NCBI RefSeq assembly: GCF_000443995.1
Contig: NZ_AUMC01000010.1
Span: 372,001-436,000, forward strand
From: Bacteriovorax sp. BAL6_X
GTDB lineage: Bacteria > Bdellovibrionota > Bacteriovoracia > Bacteriovoracales > Bacteriovoracaceae
Length of the DNA: 64,000 nucleotides
Reading direction: 5' to 3'
Shown: positions 34,477 to 60,507 of the stretch, piece by piece
Numbering within the stretch: position 1 is the stretch's first letter
How the letters are laid out: each line of letters begins with the position of its first letter
The notes under the pieces: model-generated
The model's database searches: none
Seen by the model: only the letters and a program-made list of their open reading frames with translations
What the model was told of the DNA's origin: nothing
Position numbers and translations under genes: made by a program

Positions 34477-34591
34477 TCTGATTTCAGTAGGTTAGTGAAT
34501 GTAAATTCGATATAAATACACAAAAAATAAATAAATTTCCCTTTTCAATGCTACAAGCTACTGTTTTTAAATTTAAATAGGACAGTAGCTT

Positions 34592-37500
34592 GTGAAAAAA
34601 TTAGTTTCATACTTTGTAGGAAATAGTTTTCTAGTAAACTTATTAAGTATCATGATGGTGCTATTTGGAATTATCTCCCTTGCCCATATGAAACGAGACT
34701 TAATCTCTAATTGGTCTTCAAAAAGAATTCAAGTAACGGCCACTCTAACAGGTGCAAGCGCTTCTCAAGTTGAGAGATTTCTTACTTATCCAATTGAGCG
34801 TGCCATAAAAGGTAGTGCTGGTATTGATAAGATTTGGTCAAATTCACAACAAGGGTATATGCGTATCAATGTTGATGTAAAAGACGAATTTGAAGAAATC
34901 AATGATCTAGAAACACGCATTAAAGACTCTATTGAAACGATTCGTGGAGACCTTCCTTCTGAAACTAAAGATATTGTCGTTCGCCATATTAAGCAAACAG
35001 ACTCTTGGTTTAACTACTATGCAATTTTAAACTTTGATCAAAATAGCGATCTCCATCAGAATTGGCTTTTAAAAATTGAAGAAGAACTTGAAAGGATTAA
35101 TGGTATTTCAAGAGTTGATACTTACGGCTACACTAAAGATCTCTATATTAAGCTAAAAGTTGATAATATGGCCCGCTACAGAATTGCTCCTTCTGATATT
35201 TATAATAAAATTAAAGAAACATTTAGAATTTACCCTCTAGGAAGTATTCGCAAGGGAAGTGATTCTTACTCAATTGAAATTGAAAATCTTAAATATGATA
35301 TCGAGTCTCTTAATAATCTTTTAATTCGTTCTAATAACTCAAGCCACACGCTTCGCCTCAAAGACTTAGCAACTCTTGAGTACCGTTTGCCCAAGATTAA
35401 CAGAACTAATTATACAAATGGTAAGCCGGGGATAAGCTTTAATATCTTTAAAGATGTTGAAGCTGACTCAATTACATTAAAAGAGATGTTAGAAGATAAA
35501 CTCGCTAAGATAAATAAAGAAGCTCCAGAAGAAATAAATATCATTAGTGTTGAGGATGGCCCTGCATTTATTGAAAGGCAAATTAATGCACTTCAGTCGA
35601 ATGCTCTAATGGGAATCATTCTTGTTCTTATCACTCTTTGTTTGTTTCTTGGTTTTAAGACGGCAATTATGACGTCTATTGGGATGCCTCTTGCTTACTT
35701 CTTTACCTTTACTGTACTTGAAACAATGGGGATCTCAATTGATCTAATCTCTGTCGTAGGAATGTTACTCGTAATCGGTATTCTTGTTGATGATGCTATT
35801 ATTATTTCAGAACAATATATGCAAAATCTTGAAAAGGGTGCAAGCTCTAAAGACGCTGCTGTTGGAGCAGTCCTTTCCACTTGGAAGCCTATTTGTGGAA
35901 CCGTTGCTACCACTCTGATTGCCTTTACTCCTATCCTTGTTGGAAAGGATTCAATGTCAAATATCTTAATGGCAATTCCTGTTGTTGTTTTCTCTGCTCT
36001 TCTTTTGAGTTTGTTTGAAAGTTTCTTTATTCTTCCAAACCACTTAAAGCACTTTGTGACAAAGGCAAATGCACATCATGAGTCAAGCTACTTTCAACGA
36101 TTTAAACGCGGATACCTGAGACTTCTTGATGGCGCATTAAGGTGGCGTTATATAGTTTTAGCAGGCTTTGTTGTGGCCATGATTGGTTCAATTATATTTG
36201 CAAGCAAGAATATCAATTTCAATTTCAATTTAAGTATCTCTTCTGAGACTGTTGAATTTATTGGAGCATTAAAAAAGTCTGAGGGCCTTGATGATTCGTA
36301 TAAACAACTTGCTCCGCTTGAAGAGGTAATGAATAAGATTGATAAAAATAAATATAATAATTATCAATTTACGATTGGCCAAAATTATACAAATGGTAAG
36401 AAACAAGAAGGTCCACAATATTTTAGCTATCGAGTTTCATTTTCTCAGCTTGATAATAATGTTGAGGCCAATAAGAAAGATGTTCAAGACTATCTTAAGG
36501 ATCAGCTCAAAGAACTAGAGAAAACAGGTAAGTTTGAAAGATTGGAAGTAAAAATTGCAAAAGGTGGAAATGATGAAAGTCGTGAAAATCTCGTTGAAGT
36601 AACAATTCAGTCCCTCTCTCCATTTAATGTTGAAGAGGTAACAGAGTATACAAAGAAGGCCATTGAAGATTTACAGATTGAAGGTATAAAGTCGGTAGAT
36701 TTAGATGATTCTCTTTTTAAGGATGCTTGGGTTTTCACTCCTAAGAAAAATGAAATACAATCTCGTGGGCTCTCTCTTGGACAGGTCTCTAGTCAACTTG
36801 TTCAATTTATTAATAAGAATGAAGTTTATGAGTACACAAGTGGTAATCGTAAAATTCGTTTCTTAACTTATGCTGCTGATGGGGATGACTTAACTTTTGA
36901 AGAGCTTGGAAACCTTCCTGTTGTTCTTGCAAATGGTGAAGTCATTAAGTCTTCAGAGATTGGTACTTGGAAGAAGCAGAAGAAGCAATCAGTAATTAGA
37001 CACTCAAACTTAATGAGAAAGGTTGTAGTAGATCTTCCGTTTGATAAAGAGATTGTAAAAAAAGAAGTACTGATTAAAAAAGTTGATCTTCTAACAAAAG
37101 AGCTTTCAAAAAAATATCCAGACTTAATGTTTAATGCACAAGATGCTGATGAGCAGTCGAGAAAGAATAAGAATTCGATGATTAAGAAATTTGCATTTGC
37201 TCTTCTTGGTATCTTCTTCGTTCTTGCAATTGTTCTTAGAAGTATCATGCAACCACTTCTTATTTGTTCTGCTATTCCATTTGGTGTTATTGGAGTTATT
37301 TGGGCATTCTACTTTCAGGGACTAGATATTAGCTTAATGGCAATTATCGGTATCATTGGAATGGCCGGGGTTGTTGTTAATGACAGCTTACTTCTTGTTG
37401 TGACAATTAATGAGAAAAGAAGAGACTGGTTTAGCTTTCACCGCCCTGAAATCCTTGAAGGAGCAGGAAGTCGACTTAGAGCAATCATTCTAACAAGTAT

Positions 37501-54591: not shown

Positions 54592-55476
54592 ATGAGCTTC
54601 ACTACACTTGGGGACTACATCGGCTCGTTCTTTAATGAGAATAAAAAATTCTTAGCGGCAAACTACCCTGGAATTACTCTTTCTCGTTTAAAGGCCGAGC
54701 TGAAGGACTTCTGTCGTATCCTCGAGTCTCAATTCGATGACATTTATATTTCTGAAAATAAAGGTGTCATTGAAGAGTTCTTAAAAAAAGTCAGACAGGG
54801 GACACCTCTCGAATACATTAGCAATCGTGCTTTCTTTTATCGCTCTTCTTTTTATGTAAATGAAAATGTTCTTATTCCTCGAAGTGAAACGGAAATCATG
54901 GTGGAGTGGACATCTGAATATATTAAGAAGAATAAGCTCAATGATATCTCTATTGCAGATATCGGCACAGGAAGTGGGGCAATTGCCCTAAGTTTAGCAG
55001 GAGAAATTGGAGAAATTGAAGCGAGAATTGTGGCCAGTGATATTAGTCCTATGGCCTTAGAAGTTGCTCGTGCCAATAAATTCTTTCACCGATACCGCTA
55101 TCCAAAGACTGTAAAAATTGTCTTTGAAGAATCTGATTTATTAACAAATCTCGATGAGAAATTCGACATCATCATTAGTAATCCTCCATATATTAAGGAA
55201 GCCGCTGACTTAAGTGAAGTACATGGACAGGTTCATCGTTTTGAACCTCATCTTGCTCTTTACTTAAAAGATGAAGATTACGATAATTGGTTTAAAAATT
55301 TCTTCCAACAAGTGGAGGAAAAGTTGAATACCGGTGGCCTGTTCATAATGGAAGGTAGTGAATTGCATTTAGAACACTTAAAAGATATTTTAAGTGAATA
55401 TCAATTCTCTAATCTTGAACTGATTAAGGACTACACTGATCGCTACCGTTTTCTAAAAGGAATTAAAAATGGATAA
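54592..55476 (+). CDS. prmC: Release factor glutamine methyltransferase
   Basis: 294 aa. SAM-dependent enzyme that methylates the GGQ glutamine of RF1/RF2. N-terminal helical domain, then IADIGTGSGAIALSLA (SAM site) and SNPPYIKEA (NPPY catalytic loop). It begins 8 nt after the prfA stop and overlaps murA by 8 nt, so all are cotranscribed. Confidence 0.95.
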   Translation: MSFTTLGDYIGSFFNENKKFLAANYPGITLSRLKAELKDFCRILESQFDDIYISENKGVIEEFLKKVRQGTPLEYISNRAFFYRSSFYVNENVLIPRSETEIMVEWTSEYIKKNKLNDISIADIGTGSGAIALSLAGEIGEIEARIVASDISPMALEVARANKFFHRYRYPKTVKIVFEESDLLTNLDEKFDIIISNPPYIKEAADLSEVHGQVHRFEPHLALYLKDEDYDNWFKNFFQQVEEKLNTGGLFIMEGSELHLEHLKDILSEYQFSNLELIKDYTDRYRFLKGIKNG

Positions 55477-56719
55477 AATTATAGTTAAAGGACCAGCACG
55501 TCTTTCTGGTGAAGTTGAAATATCTCCGGCCAAGAATGCCTGTCTGCCAATCTTAGCGGCAATCCTTTTAACAGATAAGAAAGTTACATTAACGAGTCTA
55601 CCAAAGCTTCGTGATATTAATACAATGCTTAAGCTTCTTGAGATGATGGGCGTACAATGTGATCGAAATGGAAAGGATATTACATTCGATGCTTCTTCTC
55701 TAAGTTCTCACGAAGCAACTTATGAGCTTGTTAAAACAATGCGTGCATCGATCTTTGTTCTTGGGCCACTTCTTTCGCGTCTTGGAAAAGCTAAAGTATC
55801 ACTTCCTGGTGGTTGTGCCATTGGTACTCGTCCAATTGATATTCACCTCGACAACCTTGAGAAGATGAATGTTAAGATTGAAATGAAAAGTGGTTACGTT
55901 TACGCAGAAACAGATCACCTTAAAGGTGCTCATGTAAAGCTTAAGTTTCCATCTGTTGGGGCAACGGAGAACCTAATTATGGCGGGTGTCTTTGCTGACG
56001 GTCAGACTATTATTGAGAATGCAGCAATGGAGCCAGAAATTGATGACCTTGCAAATTTCTTAAACTCACTAGGTGCGAAGGTTTCAGGAATCGGAACATC
56101 TCGTATTGTTGTTGACGGAGTTAAGGAACTTAATGGTGGAACTTACCAAGCAATTGGTGACCGAATTGAGGCCGCAACTTATATTATCGGAGGCCTTATG
56201 ACAAAGTCTGAGGTTACGATAAAGAACTTCAATCCAAAGCATCTTTTTAATGTTCTTGAAAACCTTCAAGGCATGGGAGCAAAGCTTGAGATCGGTGATA
56301 ACTTTGTTAAGACATACCCATCTTCACTTAAAGGTTCAAAAGTTATTACTGAGCCATTTCCTGGTTTCCCAACTGATGTTCAAGCACAGATGGTTGCACT
56401 TTTAACTGTTGTTGAAGGGAACTCTCTTGTGACAGAAAATATTTTTGAAAATCGTTTCATGCATGTGCCTGAACTTACTCGTCTAGGTGCAAGTATTGAG
56501 CAATTAGGAAGCTCTGTCTTTATTGAAGGTGGAAAGCCTCTAACGGCAGCTCCTGTAATGTGTACAGATCTTCGTGCCTCAGCAGCTCTCGTTCTTGCCG
56601 CTCTTTGTGCATACGGTGAAACGAAAATTGATCGTGTTTACCATCTTCAGCGTGGTTATGAAGATCTACCGGAGAAGCTTAAGAAGCTTGGTGCAAGTGT
56701 TGAACTCGTAAACGAATAG
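55469..56719 (+). CDS. murA: UDP-N-acetylglucosamine 1-carboxyvinyltransferase
   Basis: 416 aa. First committed step of peptidoglycan synthesis. The active-site loop SLPGGCAIGTRPIDIHL contains the Cys attacked by fosfomycin (equivalent of Cys115), so the protein is predicted sensitive at that residue. KNACLPILAAILL and the C-terminal TDLRASAALVLAAL are typical. AAGGA upstream of ATG 55469, inside prmC. Confidence 0.96.
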   Translation: MDKIIVKGPARLSGEVEISPAKNACLPILAAILLTDKKVTLTSLPKLRDINTMLKLLEMMGVQCDRNGKDITFDASSLSSHEATYELVKTMRASIFVLGPLLSRLGKAKVSLPGGCAIGTRPIDIHLDNLEKMNVKIEMKSGYVYAETDHLKGAHVKLKFPSVGATENLIMAGVFADGQTIIENAAMEPEIDDLANFLNSLGAKVSGIGTSRIVVDGVKELNGGTYQAIGDRIEAATYIIGGLMTKSEVTIKNFNPKHLFNVLENLQGMGAKLEIGDNFVKTYPSSLKGSKVITEPFPGFPTDVQAQMVALLTVVEGNSLVTENIFENRFMHVPELTRLGASIEQLGSSVFIEGGKPLTAAPVMCTDLRASAALVLAALCAYGETKIDRVYHLQRGYEDLPEKLKKLGASVELVNE

Positions 56720-56730
56720 GGAGAAGCGTA

Positions 56731-57066
56731 ATGAGTGATTGTTTATTTTGCAAAATTCTAAATGGTGAAATTCCTTCAACAAAAGTATTTGAAAATGAAA
56801 GCGTTTATGGCTTTCAGGATATTCAACCACTTGCAAAAGAGCACTATCTCTTTATTCATCGCAATCACTCAAAGAATGTGAATGAGATGGATCGCGATGA
56901 TATGGCCCAGGTGTTTGATGCCATTAAAGAATTCACACAGTCGAATGAACTCGAGAATAATGGCTTTCGTGTGGTTTCAAATATTAACGATCACGGATGT
57001 CAGTCTGTTTATCATACGCATTTTCATGTACTTGGCGGTGAGCAACTTAAAGGCTTTGGCGCTTAA
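56731..57066 (+). CDS. HIT-family nucleotide hydrolase
   Basis: 111 aa. Ends YHTHFHVLGG, the HxHxHxx histidine triad, with CLFCKILNGEIPSTKVFENE at the start (zinc-binding Cys pair as in Hint proteins). Hydrolyses purine nucleoside phosphoramidates or related adducts. GGGAG before ATG 56731; 11 nt after murA, so end of the operon. A 13-bp hairpin follows. Confidence 0.92.
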   Translation: MSDCLFCKILNGEIPSTKVFENESVYGFQDIQPLAKEHYLFIHRNHSKNVNEMDRDDMAQVFDAIKEFTQSNELENNGFRVVSNINDHGCQSVYHTHFHVLGGEQLKGFGA

Positions 57067-57109
57067 GTATCCCACAATTAAAAAGTTCTATTTCAAATTA
57101 GAAATATAG

Positions 57110-57166
57110 TCTCCTTAGAATTGATTTTCGCTATAACGGCAAAAAATAATTCTAAGGAGATTTTTT
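57110..57166 (+). promoter_or_regulatory. 13-bp perfect hairpin that contains the ribosome-binding site of the next gene
   Basis: TCTCCTTAGAATT (57110-57122) pairs with AATTCTAAGGAGA (57148-57160), 25-nt loop. The right arm is the AAGGAG of the gene at 57167 and is followed by TTTTTT directly before the ATG. It is thus at once a terminator-like structure after the HIT gene and a translation switch for the lipoprotein. Confidence 0.75.
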
Positions 57167-58204
57167 ATGCGTTCAATTTTTCTGATTCCCATGATTCTAC
57201 TTCTTTCATGTGGAAAACCAAATGAAAGTGTACTTGTTGACCAAGGCCTTAATCCGAGCTTTAAAGGCCAGTCACTTATTGCAACTCAAATTCAATGTCA
57301 GTCAATTCAATTCAATTTTTCAAGTGAAGAAATTTCTTGTCCAACGACATTTATCAATGAAGAGAAGCTATTCTTATTCTCTGCTGATCAAGAAGATATC
57401 GATTTTAATACTTTAAATGATCTTTCACTTATCACTCTTAGAATTTCTACCAAGGCTGATCTTCAGGCTCGTTTTTACCTCGTTTCAAAATATGGAAAAC
57501 GTCTAAGTGAAACTGTTTTCTTTGATGGAAAGAGTGATCTGAATTTTAAAGAGAAGAATATTGGAGACTTCCTTGCGCATGAGGTTTATTTAAAATTGGA
57601 AGATTATTATACAAGTGGAGTAAGGCCTGTTTCTGTTCGTGATGAAGAAGACCAAAATTGTGATACTGGTTTATTTAATGTCGAAGATGTAAATATTGAA
57701 GATCTTCGTGGTCAGTGTCCAAACCTTAAGGTTATCACAAATTTTAAGGCAGTGGTTAATGCTCCTGTTTATAATGAAAACTCTGACTTTAATATGGAAA
57801 ACGTTGATTATTACATTCCTGCAACTCGTAGAAAAAATCCATTTAATGGAAAAAATTATACAATACCGGCCCCTCTTATTCGTTTAAATTACCGTATTTT
57901 TAAATATATGAAAGAACAAGAGTTAGAAGTTAATAGATTTTATAATATTGTAAATAACGAGTTTGGACTTGATATCAAAGAACTAGATAATGAAATTTGT
58001 GAAGAAGAAGGAATCTTAGCAATACAGTCGTACTCAGAATTAAAAAAGAAATGGATGACTCTTGACGACCAATCTGCACGAAAACAATCATTTCAATCGG
58101 TTCATATTAATGGTGAATATATTGATTTTAAAAGTAATTATAAAGTTAAAAGGTGCTATCCGGTTAAACCTAAATTAAGCGGATATATCCTTATTAAGGA
58201 ATAA
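57167..58204 (+). CDS. Lipoprotein of unknown function, hairpin-controlled translation
   Basis: 345 aa. Lipobox ILLLSCGKP (Cys16). Mature part with ~8 Cys (ATQIQCQSI, EISCPTTF, QNCDTGLF, RGQCPNLK, NEICEEEG, KRCYPV), likely disulfide-bonded. No domain recognised; the second half has FNGKNYTIPAPLIRLNYRIFKYM and is rich in Asn/Tyr. The AAGGAG lies 7 nt before ATG 57167, inside the hairpin. Followed by a strong bidirectional terminator. Confidence 0.8.
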   Translation: MRSIFLIPMILLLSCGKPNESVLVDQGLNPSFKGQSLIATQIQCQSIQFNFSSEEISCPTTFINEEKLFLFSADQEDIDFNTLNDLSLITLRISTKADLQARFYLVSKYGKRLSETVFFDGKSDLNFKEKNIGDFLAHEVYLKLEDYYTSGVRPVSVRDEEDQNCDTGLFNVEDVNIEDLRGQCPNLKVITNFKAVVNAPVYNENSDFNMENVDYYIPATRRKNPFNGKNYTIPAPLIRLNYRIFKYMKEQELEVNRFYNIVNNEFGLDIKELDNEICEEEGILAIQSYSELKKKWMTLDDQSARKQSFQSVHINGEYIDFKSNYKVKRCYPVKPKLSGYILIKE

Positions 58205-58206
58205 TG

Positions 58207-58233
58207 AAAGCCTCCGAAATGGAGGCTTTTTTA
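58207..58233. terminator. Strong bidirectional terminator between the lipoprotein and zinc operon
   Basis: AAAGCCTCC and GGAGGCTTT, 9-bp stem with loop GAAAT, T-tract on the plus side reaching the stop codon of the znuB-like gene, which is read on the other strand. Confidence 0.9.
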
Positions 58234-59022
58234 TTTGCGCTTTGAAAGGATAGTTTTAATTACATATAGAAGTAAGGTTAATATAATTATTTGAATTGGT
58301 GTGGTGCTAATCCTTTCAAATATAATAGAAGCTGCAAGACCAAGTAGTGCAGCAATTATAGCAGTCGGTAGTAATGTTAATGTAGCCTTCTTTTCACTTT
58401 TAAATGATGAACCTAGAACTAGTGCTGGAAGCATTAAAAAACTCATCGTATAGAGAAATCCAAGGACATATAAGGACGTAATTAAGGGAATCGTAAACAG
58501 AAATAACTCAATAAGAGAGTCCTTTGTTCGACCTAGAACACTTATCTCAAAAGTTCTCTTATTAATTGACTTGGCCATTAATTTATAAAGAATTCCAAAG
58601 AGAAAAAATGCTGAAATGGCCAAGATATTTTCAAAACCTGAGGCCGTTACCATATTGCCAAAGAAGCCAATGCTCATATGTGAGTCGAGTTGTGGAAAGT
58701 AGCTAATAAGAAGATATTGTAGGGACGTTAGAACAAGGTATCCTCCCACCATAAAATTATTCTTCTTATCATTCTTAATCTCTAGTTTATAAAGAGCATA
58801 TTTTCCTGCTGCAAAAAGGGTATAACTACATAGAAAGCCAGAGTATTGATCATGGAAATAGAGTTTTGCTACAAGATTTCCAAGCATGGCAAGTTGTGAA
58901 AGAAGGAAGATTTCTAAAATATTGCCACGAGAAAAGAAATGCTTACCAATTTGAGTCAGTCCTGCTGCCGAAAAGGCCGCTACAATAAATGAGAGTTTGT
59001 AAAAGGCAAAGAGACTAGTCAT
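58231..59022 (-). CDS. znuB: ABC-3-type metal transporter permease, ZnuB-like
   Basis: 263 aa, seven or eight hydrophobic helices (e.g. LSFIVAAFSAAGLTQIG, IIIFL-type stretches, FLMLPALVLGSS), the architecture of ABC-3 (ZnuB/MntB) permeases, but divergent in sequence. Last gene of the operon; its start overlaps the ATPase gene by 8 nt. Substrate zinc is inferred from the neighbours: a ZnuA-like binding protein and a Zur-type regulator. Confidence 0.82.
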   Translation of the reverse strand: MTSLFAFYKLSFIVAAFSAAGLTQIGKHFFSRGNILEIFLLSQLAMLGNLVAKLYFHDQYSGFLCSYTLFAAGKYALYKLEIKNDKKNNFMVGGYLVLTSLQYLLISYFPQLDSHMSIGFFGNMVTASGFENILAISAFFLFGILYKLMAKSINKRTFEISVLGRTKDSLIELFLFTIPLITSLYVLGFLYTMSFLMLPALVLGSSFKSEKKATLTLLPTAIIAALLGLAASIIFERISTTPIQIIILTLLLYVIKTILSKRK

Positions 59023-59596
59023 GGCGCTTCACCTCGAGGACCTTTAATCGATTCTCTGGTATATCGATGACATGATGACTCACAAGAATGATAGAAATTC
59101 CTAAAACCGTACTAACTTTAATTAAAAGATCAGAGACAATCTTAATTGAGTCCTTGTCGAGATGATTAAATGGTTCATCTAGGATAAGAACTTTCGTATT
59201 CTTTGTTAGACGAGTTAAGATCATGACCTTTTGTTTCTCCCCACCACTTGCATTAATCCATCTCTTTTTTCTTAGAGAGTCTGTGATAAGCTCATTACTT
59301 GAATCCATGGCCTCATAAAGATCGTGGATTTCTCCAATTGTGTATGAGAAGTTTGTATTTGGGTTTGTTATTTGTGGAAGGTATGAAATTGCATATTTAG
59401 GGATCGTCCAGTTATAAGAACCAGATATTTTAGGGATTGCCCCCAGAATCGTCTTTATTAGAGTTGTTTTCCCACTTCCATTAGTACCTTGAATATAGAG
59501 GATTTCACCAGCACCTAGGCTTAGGTTAATGCCACTTGAAAGTGGGGATTTGTGGCCAATGGCCAGCTCTTCTATATTGAGGTAGCAGTGTTTCAT
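59015..59596 (-). CDS. znuC: ABC transporter ATP-binding protein, ZnuC-like (short)
   Basis: 193 aa, shorter than the usual ~250. Walker A IQGTNGSGKTTLIK, ABC signature NASGGEKQKV, Walker B KVLILDEPFNHLD and H-loop VSHHVID are all intact, so it should be active; it lacks the C-terminal extension of E. coli ZnuC. Stop overlaps the znuB-like start by 8 nt; its start overlaps the znuA-like stop by 1 nt. Confidence 0.88.
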   Translation of the reverse strand: MKHCYLNIEELAIGHKSPLSSGINLSLGAGEILYIQGTNGSGKTTLIKTILGAIPKISGSYNWTIPKYAISYLPQITNPNTNFSYTIGEIHDLYEAMDSSNELITDSLRKKRWINASGGEKQKVMILTRLTKNTKVLILDEPFNHLDKDSIKIVSDLLIKVSTVLGISIILVSHHVIDIPENRLKVLEVKRHD

Positions 59597-60507
59597 TATT
59601 TAGCTTTAACCTTAGCATTCTCAAGGATATCTTTAGCGATATAGCTAAGTAGATCTTCGTAGGTTTTAACCTTGCCTTCCTTTTCAATACTAATTGGGAC
59701 GCGGCTTACATGAATTCCACTCATTTCTTGAAATTTATCAGTTAAATTCTTTGGAGAAGTTGTAGCAGCAAGAGCAAGTGAGACACCTTTTTGTTTGGCC
59801 TCAATTGATACTCTAGCAAGTCGCCCTGCTGAAGGTGGAACACCTGGAACAGATTCAATGGCACCAATATTACTTATTCCAAATTCATTTAAGAAGTATG
59901 AAAATTCACGGTGGTACTCCATGAATTTTAAATTTTTAACATTCTTAAGTTGATTGGCTATTTTTGATTTAAGTTTGTTGATATCTTTTTTCGTATTTTC
60001 AAAATTATTTAAATAGTAGGCAGCGTTCTTTGAATCAATATCAATAAGAACATTTAAGACTGTTTCAGCACCTTGAAGAAAAGCTGTTGGCCCTAGATGA
60101 TAGTGAGGATTTCCTTGTGGATGTACATCTCCGTGCGAACGATCAATTTTTCCTGTTGGAACATCTAGTGCTTTTACTGTTTTTCCTGTTTCGCAGTATC
60201 CTTTTCCTCCTGGTTGAATCTTTCGATTACCTGAGCGAGTAAGAATCTTTGGCGCCCATCCGACCTCAAGGTCAAGTCCTACCATACAAAAGATATCAGC
60301 ATTTGCGGCCTTTGCAATAAAGTGAGGCATGGCATCGATATAGTGTGGATCTTCAGTCCCGTTAAGAAGTGATTCAACTTCAACTTTCTCGCCACCAATA
60401 CGTTGAGCAAGCCAAGCGATATCTGTTGTTGTCGTTATGACCTTTAGTTTTGCCATTGCATTGAAACTAAATGCTAGAAATAGAATTATTATGATTTTAG
60501 AATTCAT
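59596..60507 (-). CDS. znuA: Zinc-binding periplasmic protein, ZnuA-like (cluster A-I)
   Basis: 303 aa with signal peptide MNSKIIIILFLAFSFNAMA. Metal-site candidates: GTEDPHYIDAMP (His), HYHLGPTAFLQ (His) and MEYHREFSYFLNEFGI (His), as in Zn/Mn A-I binding proteins, plus a short His/Asp loop GDVHPQGNPHYH near residue 125. No long His-rich insert as in E. coli ZnuA. Its first 11 nt overlap the preceding gene, so the operon is translationally coupled. Confidence 0.88.
   Translation of the reverse strand: MNSKIIIILFLAFSFNAMAKLKVITTTTDIAWLAQRIGGEKVEVESLLNGTEDPHYIDAMPHFIAKAANADIFCMVGLDLEVGWAPKILTRSGNRKIQPGGKGYCETGKTVKALDVPTGKIDRSHGDVHPQGNPHYHLGPTAFLQGAETVLNVLIDIDSKNAAYYLNNFENTKKDINKLKSKIANQLKNVKNLKFMEYHREFSYFLNEFGISNIGAIESVPGVPPSAGRLARVSIEAKQKGVSLALAATTSPKNLTDKFQEMSGIHVSRVPISIEKEGKVKTYEDLLSYIAKDILENAKVKAK

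Follow-up and report, generated by a model that had tools for sequence, protein, structure and literature searches.

The leader of a lipoprotein gene in the 64-kb window (the whole stretch of DNA analysed, 64,000 nucleotides of the marine predatory bacterium Bacteriovorax sp. BAL6_X) holds a hairpin that buries the Shine-Dalgarno (SD) site of the gene and that is one of a class, the same design recurring at about twenty other genes of the genome. We consider this focal hairpin to be, on balance, a probable insulator, which would silence read-through RNA from murA-HIT and permit translation from a promoter nested within it. Computation gave the structure of the hairpin, how strong it is and how it depends on where the RNA starts, as well as the genome-wide class, the confinement of that class to same-strand neighbours, and the co-varying arms with nested promoter elements in two of its members. 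The focal case itself rests on class membership: its promoter is a weak candidate and its gene an ORFan, and the class therefore carries the argument. The features of the region are as follows.

55469-56719, plus strand: murA, in the upstream operon rho-prfA-prmC-murA-HIT (from the open reading frame list)
56731-57066, plus strand: HIT-family gene, last of the upstream operon (Pfam HIT, 1.5e-19)
57108-57123, plus strand: left arm, with perfect core 57110-57122; contains the anti-SD CTCCTTA
57116-57121, plus strand: alternative -10-like TAGAAT in the left arm, start near 57128; weak
57132-57137, plus strand: candidate -10 TATAAC in the loop, start expected near 57144; weak, putative
57147-57162, plus strand: right arm, with perfect core 57148-57160
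57153-57159, plus strand: SD site TAAGGAG, wholly within the right arm, 7 nt before the ATG
57161-57166, plus strand: T6 run directly 3' of the perfect core, a possible intrinsic terminator tail
57167-58204, plus strand: ORFan lipoprotein gene, 345 aa, lipobox LLLSCGK, start site covered by the hairpin
58206-58230, plus strand: ordinary compact terminator 3' of the lipoprotein gene (11-bp stem, 3-nt loop), in contrast to the focal hairpin

The lipoprotein gene lies on the same strand as the HIT gene, 100 nt downstream of it, with the HIT stop codon about 40 nt before the hairpin. The genes further upstream are those we take to be rho, prfA, prmC and murA, names assigned by eye from the translations. 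The 345-aa reading frame scores well as coding, and no homolog of it was found in the family, in 129 genomes of the class Bacteriovoracia or in the genome collection. Downstream of the HIT gene, three congeneric genomes have a different gene in convergent orientation, the counterpart of which is on another contig in this genome, and the HIT-lipoprotein neighbourhood is thus specific to this species among the genomes seen. Further along the window, on the minus strand (59015-60507), are zinc/manganese-type ABC transporter genes (substrate-binding, ATPase), none of which reaches the NCBIfam cut-off.

The first-pass annotation had described a 13-bp perfect stem burying the ribosome-binding site, and this was borne out. 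The core is a 13-bp perfect inverted repeat, which the flanking pairs extend to a predicted RNA helix of 16 bp (57108-57123 with 57147-57162), and the start codon (57167-57169) follows immediately after the T6, the first two T of which are paired in the longer helix. The 101-nt stretch with the hairpin had a minimum free energy of -29 kcal/mol (z -5.4), with none of 200 shuffles as good, and the hairpin ranked first among the inverted repeats of the window. Comparison with Rfam gave no family at or above its gathering score; the best match to the hairpin (28.3 bits against a gathering score of 60) was to a microRNA model fitting a generic hairpin, and the Rfam matches are chance only. The focal arm pair occurs once in the genome, which ruled out a dispersed repeat or mobile palindrome. 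A dispersed palindrome of REP-like appearance does occur elsewhere, around GTGCCATGCACCTTTGGTTTCGC (C6:253149, C3:483205, C6:185802, C6:91717 and C6:99650), several copies having long perfect arms. A gene on the minus strand with the left arm for its SD was also rejected, as no suitable start codon was found downstream by eye.

Folding predictions indicated that access to the focal SD depends on where the RNA begins. For RNAs starting at or before 57108 the predicted cost of opening the SD was 16-18 kcal/mol, and for RNAs starting at or after 57124 it was 1-5 kcal/mol, with any 3' end tested. The SD is thus predicted to be paired on RNA started upstream and free on RNA begun inside the hairpin, which is without the left arm. 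A start inside the hairpin had previously been put forward as an observation that would refute a switch; within the class, such a start is probably what the device is for, the long RNA being silent and the short RNA translated.

The same calculations bear on a thermosensor, also suggested in the first-pass annotation. An RNA thermometer would have its SD paired, as here, and would be expected to show marginal stability near the growth temperature, which is absent in the focal hairpin; the predicted opening costs were 23.0, 19.4, 16.2 and 14.2 kcal/mol at 4, 25, 42 and 50 °C, respectively, and the SD is predicted to stay closed at any plausible temperature. Because of this high cost throughout, and because the class occurs only behind same-strand neighbours (23 of 23 members), a restriction needless for a temperature sensor, we regard a thermometer as hardly credible. 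The strong burial of the SD would also accord with a switchable element, the long RNA having its SD freed in certain conditions by an anti-terminator such as a protein, a small RNA or a ligand, and the lack of an Rfam family at gathering score leaves room for an undescribed switch. Against this, the predicted folds offer no competing partner for the left arm, opening would cost about 17 kcal/mol, and the loops of the class differ in sequence and length. We think such an element improbable.

Two putative promoters lie within the focal hairpin. The loop TATAAC is held in CGCTATAAC (57129-57137), 38 nt before the ATG, which is the usual position of the extended -10 in leaders of the Mpl-like gene family described below; CGCTATAAC matches the extended -10 at only 5 of 7 fixed letters, as the TATAAC lacks the last T and there is no TG. 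The TAGAAT of the left arm pairs with a -35-like TTCAAA (57092-57097), with 9 of 12 letters and a spacing of 18. Both -10 candidates are weak, and AT-rich loops yield such matches by chance. A sigma28 promoter in the loop was rejected, as CGCTATAA has by eye no TAAA at the right distance.

To place the focal hairpin in its genome, 2.68 Mb (83%) of the genome was assembled, genes were called and every leader was searched. SD-burying stems scoring at least 16 were present in 18 leaders, compared with 0-1 in dinucleotide shuffles. A strong SD-burying stem such as that of the focal gene was found at 23 of the 1183 genes that have an SD and an upstream gap of at least 25 nt. All 23 have a same-strand upstream gene, against a base rate of 609/1183 (51%; p about 3e-7), as do all 18 members with a loop of at least 9 nt (p about 9e-6); we set the score threshold and the 4-nt overlap with the SD ourselves, and recognised the class only once this same genome had been looked over, so these p-values describe a pattern and are not those of a preset test. 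The excess was upheld by a different measure, as perfect 10-nt anti-SD copies occurred in 10 same-strand leaders (0.2 expected from swapped leaders) and in no divergent leaders (0.5 expected). Enrichment of secreted proteins in the class was not significant (p 0.12), and lipoproteins made up 6/23 of the class against 72/1160 of the other genes (p 0.003; the signal test was crude and was selected once the list was known). The same scan on the retrieved loci of relatives mostly re-found the two genes chosen for study below and lends little independent support. Within the window, an inverted repeat (ACAAGCTACTGT/ACAGTAGCTTGT, 34553-34593) lies before and over the start of the gene at 34592, a weak class member with an SD opening cost of 4.7 kcal/mol.

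The composition of the class also bears on two further explanations. A perfect inverted repeat surrounding a candidate promoter could be a DNA operator bound by a dimeric regulator. The arm sequences vary from gene to gene, co-varying in two families, no class member lies in a divergent region, and the focal arms are 25 nt apart, all of which make an operator very improbable.

The other explanation is that the hairpin is a plain intrinsic terminator of the murA-HIT operon, the burial of the SD being a by-product of the 100-nt gap. The hairpin has the stable stem followed by a T-run of such terminators, a run of six T is unusual between SD and start codon (5 of the 1183 genes), and the interval from the HIT gene to the lipoprotein gene, the part before the hairpin included, yielded no further terminator-like site. 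In addition, terminators, like the class, need a same-strand upstream gene. The T6 tail is compatible with a plain terminator and counts against an insulator. Nevertheless, the focal hairpin lacks the short loop and GC-rich stem of intrinsic terminators, as its loop is 23-25 nt (or 7 nt when an inner stem with mismatches is included), GC pairs make up 4 of 16 in its AT-rich stem and its position is exactly on the SD, and a simple terminator (consensus) scan omits it. Across the genome, large-loop hairpins peak exactly at the SD, and do so only in same-strand pairs, whereas small-loop hairpins, the ordinary terminators, spread further upstream, and 18 of the 23 class members have no run of at least four T after the SD. 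A few of the 23, with a short loop and a T-run (e.g., C10:818838), may be plain terminators. For the focal hairpin, we consider termination as the sole role possible though unlikely.

Two class members with orthologs show arms that co-vary across the family together with a promoter element in the loop or left arm, and hairpins are absent from some orthologs of both. The first is an Mpl-like ligase gene (C3:315609). Of 6 genus genomes, 4 keep its SD hairpin, one of them with a stem that is largely changed, and the remaining two lack a comparable hairpin and also differ in the gene upstream; in the genus alignment of the leaders, two pairs had changed on both sides. The wider sample comprised 64 relatives from the genome collection, of which 58 leaders were scored; named neighbours such as Bacteriovorax sp. 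MedPE-SWde and DB6_IX place the organism with marine Halobacteriovorax/Bacteriovorax. An extended -10 (TGNTANAAT or near) was found in 28 of the 58, mostly at -32 to -39, and sits between the arms where a hairpin exists. In 16 leaders with this element, the predicted SD opening cost was 5.7-12.4 kcal/mol on the long RNA and 0.2-3.1 kcal/mol on RNA starting after the extended -10. As MAFFT alignment misplaced the arms, co-variation was assessed by arm swapping: own arms gave 5.98 kcal/mol against 3.36 for swapped arms (0 of 2000 permutations). The relatives L248 and L251, in which the upstream gene is divergent, have no hairpin.

The second member is a lipoprotein gene (C6:308954), where own arms gave 7.37 kcal/mol against 5.62 for swapped arms (0 of 2000 permutations). 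In its leader TAAA-N15-GACGATAA, a sigma28 box, spans the left arm and loop, and in its orthologs CTCCGATA serves as both -10 and anti-SD, the sigma28 -10 lying within or next to the left arm throughout the family. The -10 box here is CCGATA, which is similarly placed in the class member C10:674875. The ortholog L163/L172 has GGAG, then a T7 run and then the ATG, which is nearly the focal layout. In the ortholog leader L169, the loop of the SD hairpin seems to enclose another compact hairpin with a T-rich stretch after it, which may be a terminator lying within an insulator. Of 140 attack-phase promoters in Bdellovibrio, 92 carry TTAAG-N16-CCGATA (PMC3627812). The CCGATA -10 of these sigma28 (FliA) promoters is also found in or next to the left arm of some class members; the passages used here mention no hairpin. 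The focal leader differs from the Bdellovibrio promoters in having no clear sigma28 box.

For the insulator reading we infer two things, activity of the focal promoter and read-through from the upstream operon. Read-through RNA from rho-prfA-prmC-murA-HIT would carry both arms, the left arm would pair with the SD and the lipoprotein would not be made. A promoter inside the hairpin (the loop TATAAC or the left-arm TAGAAT) would start an RNA that lacks the left arm and so has a free SD for translation. In addition, the T6 tail probably stops some of the transcription coming in from upstream, a role favoured by the rarity of such runs between SD and start codon. The earlier suggestion that the hairpin ends the upstream operon while overlapping the start of the next gene is thereby taken into the insulator reading.

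Comparable arrangements are known from mobile elements. In IS10, IS50 and IS200, the transposase start is folded over on read-through RNA and open on RNA from its own promoter; there the arms come from the element ends, and here they belong to ordinary gene leaders of unrelated sequence. By analogy, the proposed mechanism matches that of phage T4 gene e. Hairpins in the T4 genes e, soc, 49 and I-TevI keep the start site covered on read-through RNA made early, with the SD and/or start codon in a helix on long upstream RNAs, as predicted for the focal hairpin, and the DNA encoding the 5' strand of such a structure holds a late promoter (reviewed in PMC3014915). The T4 cases are phage genes switched from early to late expression, whereas here about twenty chromosomal genes of a predatory bacterium are concerned, some with a sigma28 or extended -10 promoter and the focal one with a T-run. 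A limited literature search, narrow in scope, found no chromosomal precedent, and the repeated use of the design on bacterial chromosomal genes behind co-oriented neighbours appears to be new.

We give about an even chance to the broader proposal that, in the Bacteriovoracaceae, SD hairpins with a nested promoter serve as a general checkpoint of the mRNA 5' end, whereby genes downstream of co-oriented neighbours but with their own timing, some of it attack-phase and sigma28-dependent, would stay untranslated on read-through RNA. If so, the identity of a transcript, beyond its amount, would decide protein output, and a trick of a few phage genes and transposons would be a routine means of separating neighbours with different timing in a predatory bacterium. 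RNA-seq on its own would then give a wrong picture of protein production, because a gene transcribed by read-through can stay untranslated. The arrangement also gives a sequence rule that can be searched for in other genomes, namely an anti-SD copy, a nested -10, an SD and a same-strand neighbour.

Apart from the hairpins, the sigma28-type pattern TAAA-N17-CGATAA occurred 43 times in the genome, compared with 12 for the reversed pattern. Forty sigma28-type sites with a spacing of 16-18 lie before genes (e.g., C10:607465, C3:552561 and C6:526216) and are candidates for an attack-phase regulon.
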